Assembly (NCBI RefSeq): GCF_014652795.1
Contig: NZ_BMZM01000003.1
Coordinates: 186,001-250,000 of the forward strand
DNA length: 64,000 bases
Origin: Kushneria pakistanensis
Lineage (GTDB): Bacteria > Pseudomonadota > Gammaproteobacteria > Pseudomonadales > Halomonadaceae
Reading direction: 5' to 3'
The first letter of the stretch is position 1, and each line of letters opens with the position of its first letter. Shown in pieces: positions 13,597 through 43,539 of this stretch. The notes beneath the pieces are model-generated. The model ran no database searches and was not told where the DNA came from. It worked only from the letters and a program-made list of their open reading frames with translations. The translations under genes and the position numbers were made by a program.

Positions 13597-13803
13597 TTGA
13601 CAGCGTTATATGGTATAAAGCCGCGCGTTTTCCTGCAATCCATGTCCCGGTATGACAGACTTGTATCGTGGATGGGCGATACCGGAAAGCGTTTGAACCA
13701 TCACAGAGACCACACATGTACCGACACATGGTCCCGGGTGCCGTGAAAACGGTCGGACCCATGGGGTACGTGGAGGCTTAACCCGATACTCAGGAGAGTC
13801 ATC
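13597..13803 (+). promoter_or_regulatory. rpsB promoter region and leader (t44-type candidate)
   Basis: The 303 bases between map and rpsB hold no gene. On the + strand TTGACA (13597-13602) and TATAAA (13614-13619) are present, but only 11 bases apart, so the exact promoter assignment is uncertain. The following ~170 bases are G-rich and structured, with GTGCCGTGAAAACGGTC (13739-13755) and a GTGGAGGCTTAACCC block (13769-13783) before the AGGAGAG ribosome binding site. From memory, this block resembles the conserved S2 leader (t44 RNA) through which ribosomal protein S2 represses rpsB. The assignment rests on that resemblance and position. Confidence 0.55.
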
Positions 13804-41825: not shown

Positions 41826-41951
41826 ATGACATCGCCGTCGACGCTATTGAAGGATCGTGCATTGCTGGTCGGTATCGTGGCAGGTATCGTCATCATATCG
41901 CTGGCGGCAGCGCTACCGGCGCTGTTTATATGGAAGGAGTTTCTCATCTGA
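41826..41951 (+). CDS. Small single-helix membrane protein, 41 aa
   Basis: An ATG with an excellent ribosome binding site (AGGTGG at 41815-41820, five bases before) opens a 41-codon frame. A charged N-terminal stretch (LLKDR) is followed by a ~22-residue hydrophobic helix (LLVGIVAGIVIISLAAALPA) and a short tail ending KEFLI. This is the shape of many small bacterial inner-membrane proteins. I do not recognise the family. It lies about 95 bases after folM and about 54 bases before the aro leader promoter. It is called from start site and composition only. Confidence 0.6.
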   Translation: MTSPSTLLKDRALLVGIVAGIVIISLAAALPALFIWKEFLI

Positions 41952-42094
41952 GCGCGGCATGCTAGTCTCGGATGATCGAGTGCGGCGCCGCTGATGCCGC
42001 AGTATTGAACCAGAACGTGTTCTCAGGATAACTTGGCATGTTGCAGCTCATGTTCAATGACACACTGACACCGCTGGCCCAAAGGGCTGCAGCG

Positions 42095-42163
42095 ATGTCT
42101 TCGTGTGTCTCGAACATGTCCGGTTATCCCGTGGGTTATTGGTTTAGAGACAGGCACGCCTGA
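42095..42163 (+). CDS. Predicted aromatic leader peptide (22 aa)
   Basis: The ATG at 42095 has AAGGG at 42082-42086. The peptide ends with GYPVGYWFRDRHA: Tyr11, then Tyr15-Trp16-Phe17, with the stop codon at the top of the first hairpin. Four aromatic residues in the last twelve, including all three kinds in consecutive codons, would be highly unlikely by chance at this position. A start at 42038 (41 codons) is possible but would lie at or before the predicted transcription start; a start at 42116 would give 15 residues. The peptide probably has no function apart from ribosome positioning. Confidence 0.72.
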   Translation: MSSCVSNMSGYPVGYWFRDRHA

Positions 42164-42203
42164 GCATCAGGGCGTGCCGGTGTCTACCGTGCTGCCCACC
42201 CAG

Positions 42204-42247
42204 AAAACCCCCGGTCGGCAGTACGCCACCGGGGGTTTTTTGTTTTT
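42204..42247 (+). terminator. Attenuator terminator upstream of the DAHP synthase gene
   Basis: A 12-bp stem (42204-42215 with 42228-42239, loop 42216-42227) is followed by TTTTTTGTTTTT. It is a strong intrinsic terminator located about 190 bases before the enzyme gene and after the leader peptide. Confidence 0.92.
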
Positions 42248-42289
42248 CATGTGACGGGCGAATGATCCAGTCGCCATCAGGAGAGCAGC

Positions 42290-42418
42290 ATGACCATGAC
42301 TTATAACAACTATTTGACCAGTGACTGGCGATTTAATCATGCGCTGGCGGCGTTTCGAGCGCTAACCGCCGGCCTGGCGATACAGGGCGCTCTACATCCC
42401 CCCTTGTTACGCTGTTAA
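42290..42418 (+). CDS. Small ORF (42 aa) between the attenuator and the DAHP synthase gene
   Basis: An ATG with a strong AGGAGAG ribosome binding site (42279-42285) opens a 42-codon frame ending 17 bases before the DAHP synthase start. The N-terminal part is rich in aromatics and Asn (TYNNYLTSDWRFNH), followed by a mildly hydrophobic Ala/Leu-rich stretch. It could be a second leader peptide, a coupling peptide or a small protein. It matches no family I know. A hairpin (GAGCGC at 42357-42362 with GCGCTC at 42387-42392) lies inside it. Confidence 0.5.
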   Translation: MTMTYNNYLTSDWRFNHALAAFRALTAGLAIQGALHPPLLRC

Positions 42419-42435
42419 AGGAAAGAAAAGAGATC

Positions 42436-43539
42436 ATGAACGCCTCACTGCATACCAATGTTGCCCCGATGGATGCCCGCTCAGCCGATGCCAGCGGCAA
42501 GGTCAGCACTGCAAGAACGCTGCCCACTGCGCAGGCTCTCAAGAACGCCATTGCCCTGGATCGTACCTTGACGGATCAGATCACGGCCCAGCGTGATGCG
42601 ATCAGGGCCATTCTGGACGGACGTGATTCCCGGTTGCTGGTCGTGACGGGACCCTGTTCCATCCATGATCGCGACAGTGCGCTGGAATATGCCCGGCGCC
42701 TGAAGGGACTGGCCGATGAGGTGGCTGACACCATGCTGCTGGTCATGCGGGTGTATGTGGAAAAGCCACGGACGACCGTCGGCTGGAAGGGGCTGGTGTA
42801 TGACCCCTGCCTTGATGGCAGCGACAATATGGCAGAAGGGCTTGCCACCACGCGCAGGCTCATGCGTGATATCACGGCATTGGGACTGCCGATTGCCTGC
42901 GAACTGCTTCAGCCCATGTTGAGCGCCTACATGGATGATCTCATTAGCTGGGCCGCTGTCGGGGCGCGTACCACCGAATCACAGATTCACCGCGAAATGG
43001 TCAGTGCCCTGCCCATGCCCACCGGGTTCAAGAACGGCACTGATGGCGGCATTCAGGTCGCCATCGATGCCATGGGCGCCAGCCGGCACGGGCACCGCTA
43101 CCCGGGACTGGATGAGAACGGTCTTCCGGCGCTGCTGCACTCCAGTGGCAATGCGCATACCCATCTGGTGCTGCGCGGTGGTCATGGTGGCCCCAACTAC
43201 GATGAACAAAGTGTTGAAAGGGCCAGCCGTGCGTTGCAGGCGGCCGGCGTTTCGACGGCCATCATGGTGGACTGCTCCCACGCCAACAGTCACAAGGATC
43301 CCGCCCGACAGCCTCTGGTACTCGATGAGGTCATTCGCCAGCGACTGGCGGGCGCGACATCGCTGGTCGGGGTGATGCTTGAAAGCCATCTGGAAACCGG
43401 CAATCAGCCCATCAGCGACACCCTGCGCTACGGCGTCTCCGTGACCGATGGCTGTCTGGGCTGGACGGACAGCGAGCATCACCTGCGCCTGGCCGCGCGG
43501 CGCCTGTCCGAGCGACTTCTGGTAGAACAATACGCCTGA
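42436..43539 (+). CDS. 3-deoxy-7-phosphoheptulonate synthase (type I DAHP synthase)
   Basis: This 367-residue enzyme condenses phosphoenolpyruvate with erythrose 4-phosphate, the entry to the shikimate pathway. Motifs are VVTGPCSIHDRDSALEYA, MRVYVEKPRTTVGWKGL, GARTTESQIHREM, GFKNGTDGG and MVDCSHANSHKDPARQP, all typical of AroF/AroG/AroH. The C-terminus (DGCLGWTDSEHHL) is most like the Trp-sensitive AroH, but the feedback type cannot be fixed from sequence alone, so no symbol is given. The leader reads all three aromatic amino acids. The ribosome binding site is AAGGAAAGAAAAGAG. A bidirectional terminator follows. Confidence 0.95.
   Translation: MNASLHTNVAPMDARSADASGKVSTARTLPTAQALKNAIALDRTLTDQITAQRDAIRAILDGRDSRLLVVTGPCSIHDRDSALEYARRLKGLADEVADTMLLVMRVYVEKPRTTVGWKGLVYDPCLDGSDNMAEGLATTRRLMRDITALGLPIACELLQPMLSAYMDDLISWAAVGARTTESQIHREMVSALPMPTGFKNGTDGGIQVAIDAMGASRHGHRYPGLDENGLPALLHSSGNAHTHLVLRGGHGGPNYDEQSVERASRALQAAGVSTAIMVDCSHANSHKDPARQPLVLDEVIRQRLAGATSLVGVMLESHLETGNQPISDTLRYGVSVTDGCLGWTDSEHHLRLAARRLSERLLVEQYA

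Follow-up and report, generated by a model that had tools for sequence, protein, structure and literature searches.

A predicted Tyr-Trp-Phe leader attenuator and a second upstream reading frame with a predicted pseudoknot in front of the DAHP synthase gene of Halomonadaceae and Pseudomonas

The attenuators trpL, pheL and hisL combine control codons in a short leader with alternative stems and a terminator, features which they share with the leader analyzed here. In trpL the control codons are located inside segment 1, and a stalled ribosome masks this segment. A different arrangement, a leader ORF together with a pseudoknot acting on the downstream gene, is found in RepY-RepZ of IncI plasmids. 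Attenuation of a DAHP synthase gene as such is already known from C. glutamicum. There, the aroF leader AroR is an experimentally studied ribosome-mediated attenuator with aromatic codons before DAHP synthase (described in the accessible parts of PMC4046766 and PMC11802643). Its codons are Phe-Tyr-Phe, and according to the accessible part of PMC11802643 limitation of Phe acts on the leader while limitation of Tyr does not. In Acholeplasma such an attenuator is predicted: the uORFC-13-1 motif of aroF consists of a predicted uORF with one or more Phe codons and a terminator before DAHP synthase (PMC8632094, accessible part). The same paper describes the odc1 motif, in which, similar to the second ORF reported below, a leader ORF and a pseudoknot act on the downstream gene (PMC8632094). 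For Pseudomonas and the Halomonadaceae we found no description of a DAHP-synthase leader peptide in the open-licence PMC literature.

We analyzed a stretch of 64,000 nucleotides from Kushneria pakistanensis, in the following called the window; positions refer to the window, and all features are located on the forward strand. A preceding sequence-only reading had proposed that a type I DAHP synthase gene is preceded by a leader which carries codons for Tyr, Trp and Phe and is followed by alternative stems and a terminator. The gene at 42436–43539 was indeed assigned to this enzyme (3-deoxy-7-phosphoheptulonate synthase, aroF/G/H family; here “aroG”) by family matches to PRK12755 (491 bits) and TIGR00034 (418 bits, cut-off 173). 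The short frame noticed upstream may be taken as a complete ORF of 41 aa (ORF1, 42038–42163, MLQLMFNDTLTPLAQRAAAMSSCVSNMSGYPVGYWFRDRHA) with the C-terminal end GYPVGYWFRDRHA, and the adjacent Tyr, Trp and Phe codons, the putative control codons, are present as TAT TGG TTT at 42137–42145. A Shine-Dalgarno sequence, AGGATAA (42025–42031), precedes ORF1 in the window and likewise in the related loci L002–L007. The predicted leader hence has the short ORF with Shine-Dalgarno sequence and the codons for the product amino acids that characterize an attenuator.

Upstream of ORF1 in the window a generic promoter scan found no match to the sigma-70 consensus. By eye a weak candidate promoter can be located at 41940–41968, with a -35-like TTTCTC (41940–41945) and a -10-like TAGTCT (41963–41968) at a spacing of 17 nt. 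Among 14 relatives viewed, five carry a promoter-like TTG(C/T)CA-16-TAGGAT before ORF1 (TTGCCA in L011, L022, L037 and L052, TTGTCA in L020), which compares favourably with the candidate seen in the genus of the window. Just upstream of the leader, a small ORF (41827–41952, MTSPSTLLKDRALLVGIVAGIVIISLAAALPALFIWKEFLI) likely encodes a one-helix membrane peptide; ORFs resembling it were found by a single regular expression in 13 of 104 loci. The sole match in the window at Rfam gathering scores is a t44 RNA (RF00127) at 13693–13782 with 76.2 bits.

The RNA following the control codons can be divided into five segments: a GGCGTGCC-like segment 1, a GGCACGCCC-like segment 2, a GGGTTGCC-like segment 3, a GGCAACCC-like segment 4 in the terminator loop, and segment 5, the 3’ arm of the terminator. 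In the window, segment 1 (GGCACGCCT, 42153–42161) overlaps the stop codon and starts 7 nt past the Phe codon. Segment 2 (GGGCGTGCC, 42170–42178) has two possible partners, either segment 1 or, in a hairpin 42170–42180 : 42187–42197, segment 3 (CGTGCTGCC, 42188–42196). Segment 4 (GGCAGTACG, 42217–42225) comprises the terminator loop and its shoulder and can pair with segment 3, including one G-U pair, to give the putative antiterminator 3:4. The perfect 8-bp hairpin described before is found between GGCACGCC (42153–42160) and GGCGTGCC (42171–42178). The intrinsic terminator (42204–42247) was also recovered, with a 12-bp stem of AAAACCCCCGGT (42204–42215) and ACCGGGGGTTTT (42228–42239) followed by a T-rich run to 42247. 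A nested alternative pairing, which had been thought to exclude the hairpin, can be drawn as proposed; however, its inner helix (42188–42196/42217–42225) does not exclude the hairpin, and only the outer helix (42177–42182/42227–42232) overlaps with it, by 2 nt. The fold of 42122–42247 has an energy of -71.3 kcal/mol compared to -42.8 ± 3.9 for shuffled sequences (z = -7.3, 0 of 200 as good). A generic terminator scan did not list the terminator at 42204–42247, probably because its loop exceeds the 8-nt limit of the tool.

To assess conservation, the sequence upstream of the most similar DAHP synthase gene was drawn from 58 genomes and from 201 genomes of the family. From more than 200 genomes we assembled 103 loci (30 + 13 + 60), chosen roughly by enzyme similarity; 102 of them belong to the Halomonadaceae and one (L012, genome G056) to another family of the same order. 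A further locus, L109, was picked by similarity of its ORF2 and is excluded from both counts made on the 103 loci. An ORF1 with a Tyr-Trp-Phe-like run was detected in 96 of the 103 upstream regions, while in seven it is absent by the pattern used. When also taking into account L109, Tyr, Trp and Phe all occur within the last 22 residues in 96 of 97 ORF1s. As a control, 20 upstream regions of other DAHP synthases from the same or related genomes contained no aromatic uORF, and one of them a terminator-like site.

Covariation of the stems was analyzed in an alignment of 37 of 41 prepared sequences, pre-filtered for a recognisable terminator end (L012, L053, L086 and L102 were dropped). The antiterminator 3:4 is paired in 91.6% of the cells with a covariation of 0.206 versus 0.097 in shuffled alignments, and the terminator in 96.5% with 0.243 versus 0.109. 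For 1:2 the values are 92.0% and 0.104 versus 0.055, with 14 of the 37 rows gapped and one slid control as high (0.110); since the rows of the window's genus are gapped in these columns, this covariation was counted on the other loci. Segments 2 and 3 are paired in 91.4% of the cells compared to 29–60% when slid, with a modest covariation of 0.215 versus 0.166 shuffled and 0.204 at slide +1. At the level of single loci, 3:4 lies above the 95th percentile of the locus's own shuffles in 59% and 1:2 in only 15% of 97 loci, and the own 2:3 duplexes exceed the 5% shuffle limit in just 44% of 91 loci. The comparison thus shows conservation of ORF1, its aromatic codons and the predicted stems 1:2, 3:4 and terminator 4:5, accompanied by compensatory changes, with 2:3 as a conserved fourth helix. 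Taken as an attenuator, the leader has conserved, mutually exclusive predicted stems ending in an intrinsic terminator, for which 3:4 and the terminator give clearer support than 1:2 and 2:3. The sequence-only reading had named conservation of the Tyr-Trp-Phe codons and covarying stems among relatives as the point on which it could fail, and its core, a Tyr/Trp/Phe-codon leader with alternative stems and a terminator before type I DAHP synthase, came through this comparison. We regard it as very likely, irrespective of the phase discussed below, that ORF1 and the RNA following it act as an attenuator.

The order of events within this predicted attenuator is less simple than a hairpin excluded by an alternative pairing. 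As written, that logic has to be given up since there are five segments and the control codons are located upstream of segment 1. In trpL-type leaders the control codons overlap with segment 1; here a median of 6 nt separates the end of the last aromatic codon from the segment 1 that follows (91 of the 97 ORF1 loci), and segment 2 starts a median of 15 nt downstream of the stop codon's first base (91 loci). Because the aromatic codons end 6–7 nt before segment 1, the phase looks inverted in relation to trpL. We computed pairing probabilities with segment 1 either masked or free in 64 of the 91 loci. When RNA polymerase has just cleared segment 3, masking of segment 1 gives a P(2:3) of 0.88, compared to 0.10 when segment 1 is free and P(1:2) reaches 0.93. 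From this we infer that a terminating ribosome would lead to 2:3 and termination, and a stalled ribosome or no ribosome to 1:2, 3:4 and read-through. With the polymerase at the end of segment 4, the equilibrium P(3:4) is 0.94 in the free and 0.75 in the masked state and is lower when masked in just 24 of the 64 loci; for the window, 3:4 is still present at this stage when a ribosome is placed at the stop codon. Since after synthesis of segment 4 both states favour 3:4, the choice in an inverted phase would have to be kinetic.

In a fed cell, a ribosome at the stop codon would accordingly cover segment 1 or part it from segment 2; 2:3 would then pair and the terminator could form. With too little Tyr-, Trp- or Phe-tRNA, the ribosome would halt at least 6–7 nt before segment 1, so that 1:2 may form, 3 may pair with 4 and transcription would go on. 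Shortage of any single one of the three amino acids could lift termination, although for AroR, the closest case studied by experiment, an effect is reported for limitation of Phe and not of Tyr. We consider this inverted phase moderately probable, with the folding calculations arguing for it on kinetic grounds only. It leads to a prediction opposite to the trp textbook case: with a five-segment ladder, an untranslated leader should read through.

Under the classical trpL phase, segment 1 would instead be disturbed by the ribosome stalling at Tyr-Trp-Phe; an extended antiterminator including the pairing 42177–42182/42227–42232 would then form, with 1:2 serving as a protector that favours termination. 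At a distance of 6–7 nt, a ribosome with Phe in its A site would extend a few nt into segment 1, and the outer antiterminator helix of the window shares 2 nt with segment 2, both of which would suit this phase. However, in the alignment of the relatives 1:2 and 3:4 fall into separate columns and can coexist, masking of segment 1 promotes 2:3 and leaves the terminator free to form, and the control codons are located 5’ of segment 1 and not inside it. We therefore consider the classical phase unlikely, although it keeps some weight.

Between the terminator and aroG we noticed a second ORF (ORF2), which is absent from the earlier reading. In the window it is located at 42290–42418 and encodes a putative second leader peptide of 42 aa (MTMTYNNYLTSDWRFNHALAAFRALTAGLAIQGALHPPLLRC), preceded by the Shine-Dalgarno sequence AGGAGA (42279–42284); its stop codon adjoins the Shine-Dalgarno sequence of aroG (AGGAAAG, 42419–42425). 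Relatives of ORF2 are present in 77 of the 103 loci when filtering for TGG CGA T, a filter that presumes CGA; the 50 ORF2s obtained with the looser pattern W[RK][FY] also all read TGG CGA. All 50 listed ORF2s have an SD-like sequence, their starts having been chosen with a Shine-Dalgarno sequence preferred. Neither the ORF1 nor the ORF2 peptide matched an NCBIfam family up to E 0.1 in the window or E 1 in five relatives, or a Pfam family up to E 1.

ORF2 contains a Trp-Arg-Phe motif, encoded by TGG CGA TTT at 42326–42334 in the window. These codons are nearly invariant, with TTT in 77 of 78 cases. Aromatic residues make up 31% of the ORF2 peptides up to Trp-Arg-Phe and 0.37% after it (139 distinct peptides). 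Tyr, Trp and Phe all occur within the 15 residues ending at this Phe in 157 of 158 loci, about half of which were chosen by pattern.

The Trp-Arg-Phe codons are followed after 6–9 nt by a predicted H-type pseudoknot made of two crossing helices, A:C and B:D. In the window, stem 1 is formed by arm A (GCTGGCGG, 42343–42350, 8 nt past the Phe codon) and arm C (CCGCCGGC, 42366–42373), and stem 2 by arm B (GAGCGCT, 42357–42363) and arm D (GGCGCTC, 42386–42392). Of 130 cores, 60% score above the 99th percentile of shuffles. Since 56 of them were found with a pattern including parts of the stems, just the other 74 distinct cores were counted as evidence; these, which had been selected with TGGCGAT and a permissive peptide pattern, exceed the 95th percentile of shuffles (32.9) in 72 cases, the two below it being L012 and L090. 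In an alignment of 51 sequences, 92.5% of the cells are paired with a covariation of 0.301 compared to 0.126 shuffled and 0.113 for the best slide; left out of this alignment were L012, which has no pseudoknot, as well as L017, L051, L090 and near-duplicates (at least 60 identical bases in 66). Stem 1 covaries clearly and stem 2 modestly in one register, the register of stem 2 being shifted in the window's genus. This genus uses other bases in both stems (GCTGGCGG/CCGCCGGC and GAGCGCT/GGCGCTC), and a third solution is seen in L056 and L077. The crossing helices A-B-C-D are hence predicted with covariation in support. As the peptide after Trp-Arg-Phe is not kept between the groups, it appears to be the RNA that is conserved.

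A pattern scan for ORF2 with one genome per species returned at least 119 stretches. Among the 80 matches listed, all come by name from Pseudomonas or genera of the Halomonadaceae except for one metagenome-assembled genome named Paucimonas. The element was found in 63 of 79 genomes of the genus of G343, a genome whose match coordinates equal those of Pseudomonas sp. GM50 (L156). In another genus of the Pseudomonadaceae, 5 of 6 loci keep ORF2 with TGG CGA TTT without a comparable pseudoknot. The Arg codon CGA is kept in L302–L306 even where the pseudoknot is missing. CGAACAC or CGATGT recurs near the 3’ end of ORF2 in many listed sequences, e.g. L156 and L078. When searching 16 loci for a partner of the invariant GGCGATTTAGC at the aroG start or elsewhere, we found none that is conserved. 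An ORF2-like match elsewhere in the genome of the window (C1:81814) reads as chance, as do weak R1 matches in seven distant genomes (E 0.0027 or worse).

Once transcription has read through the terminator, ORF2 could serve as a second sensor. A ribosome halted at any aromatic codon of ORF2 would reach no further than the edge of the pseudoknot and leave it intact, while a running ribosome would have to unfold it. The effect would probably be on aroG translation or on the fate of the mRNA, and a second gate on the read-through mRNA is the likeliest reading of ORF2. Several routes for such an effect were considered. The accessibility of the aroG Shine-Dalgarno sequence and start showed no consistent shift with the state of the pseudoknot (0.41, 0.47, 0.48), and sequestration of this Shine-Dalgarno sequence by the pseudoknot region (CCTCCG/CGGAG) was discarded as inconsistent across 154 loci. 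Programmed frameshifting at CGA TTT was rejected on inspection because no slippery heptamer was seen and the relation of the ORF2 and aroG frames is not conserved. The C-over-G skew after the pseudoknot, as an indicator of a Rho site, is moderate (0.245 versus 0.341 within aroG).

ORF2 might also encode a functional or arrest peptide or serve plain translational coupling, with the RNA fold being incidental. Several Halomonas loci have the ORF2 stop codon 2–8 nt away from the aroG start, and most of the aligned sequences share a well conserved peptide motif, RSAQxATSDR. Against this, the distance from the ORF2 stop to the aroG start ranges from -4 to 50 nt (156 loci), and the peptide past Trp-Arg-Phe is lost in the window's genus as well as in L056, L071 and L077 while the pairing is kept. 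This makes a role of the peptide or of coupling alone rather improbable. Overall, we consider it likely that ORF1 and the RNA following it form a ribosome-mediated transcription attenuator of DAHP synthase sensing Tyr, Trp and Phe, and that ORF2 is a second sensor.

By covariance-model similarity the window leader is a divergent relative of Rfam family RF00627, “P15”, which is filed as a Pseudomonas sRNA. The accessible part of PMC2375449 lists P15 with the RNAs that Livny et al. detected in P. aeruginosa. The window scores 27.0 bits (E 0.0012 in a search of 501 bases), which is below the gathering score of 70 bits; the similarity is detectable and lies at the orthologous position, and no other P15 match was found in its genome at E up to 0.01. 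On Halomonadaceae loci 8 of 12 tried gave a match at E up to 0.05 (best 48 bits), and the ORF1 region of all four Pseudomonas loci tested matched with 93–128 bits. In one genus of the Pseudomonadaceae, P15 was found above the gathering score in 25 of 25 genomes. The P15 consensus GGGuauuGGcUUAGCC and the match in Pseudomonas sp. GM50 (GGGUAUUGGUUUAGCC) carry the leader codons followed by the stems and the terminator. We inspected 13 matches of at least 43 bits (L156, L160, L163, L230, L285–L287 and L301–L306), and in all of them the next gene is a DAHP synthase above the NCBIfam cut-offs. Five further matches below 30 bits (L288, L290, L293, L294 and L295) were set aside as chance, with no DAHP synthase seen by eye. 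Two loci from another order of the same class (L286 in G556 with 69.8 bits, L287 in G663 with 43.5 bits) have P15-like leaders, GYWFSRYGV and GYWFIRYGF, with a terminator before DAHP synthase; short ORFs downstream of them are possible counterparts of ORF2.

The classification of P15 as an RNA gene, together with the relationship of the window leader to it, would be in line with a terminated leader that is in the first place a trans-acting small RNA with the leader ORF being secondary. With a DAHP synthase behind all 13 inspected matches and with the conserved features being those of an attenuator, this is very improbable; the terminated leader may have a trans role in addition. A metabolite riboswitch, which the cis position before a biosynthetic gene would allow, is hardly credible, since the alignment reveals, besides the coding codons, no conspicuous conserved unpaired core resembling an aptamer, the segments pair among themselves as a ladder, and the conserved coding feature is Tyr-Trp-Phe. 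P15 has been suggested as a possible riboswitch owing to shared synteny with a TPP riboswitch (PMC2527527, accessible part). Searches with Rfam found no riboswitch or T-box in the window at gathering scores, and none among the matches below threshold in 41950–42450.

Combining both elements, we tentatively propose that DAHP synthase of Halomonadaceae and Pseudomonas could be under two stacked ribosome-sensing switches for Tyr, Trp and Phe, an inverted-phase five-segment attenuator and, behind it, a uORF whose stalled ribosome would guard a pseudoknot licensing expression; as a whole, this proposal falls somewhat short of probable. If true, it would amount to an AND gate of two RNA mechanisms for one signal, and the “sRNA” P15 would be a by-product of the first. 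The tandem layout raises the question why one signal should be read twice. The attenuator would tie the common entry step of aromatic synthesis to its three end products via one leader and would give the long-listed Pseudomonas RNA P15 a specific, testable regulatory function. If Pseudomonas or Halomonas are used for making aromatics, the leaders would be direct engineering targets.

In comparison to trpL, pheL and hisL the window leader has three amino acids to read, a five-segment ladder, control codons 5’ of segment 1 and a second uORF downstream. In RepY-RepZ and the odc1 motif the arrangement differs from ORF2, whose predicted pseudoknot is located inside the uORF, 6–9 nt past the Phe codon, and in Pseudomonas not beside the Shine-Dalgarno sequence of the gene. 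AroR belongs to a different phylum; the accessible parts of its descriptions name Phe and Tyr codons only and mention no second uORF or pseudoknot. The uORFC-13-1 motif likewise comes from a different phylum and is a different RNA, known from 24 sequences and with only Phe described in the accessible part of PMC8632094. P15 differs in being labelled a gene in Rfam and not a leader. As far as searched within the open-licence literature, a three-amino-acid leader in Halomonadaceae and Pseudomonas, its identity with P15, the five-segment ladder and a second uORF with a predicted pseudoknot are new.
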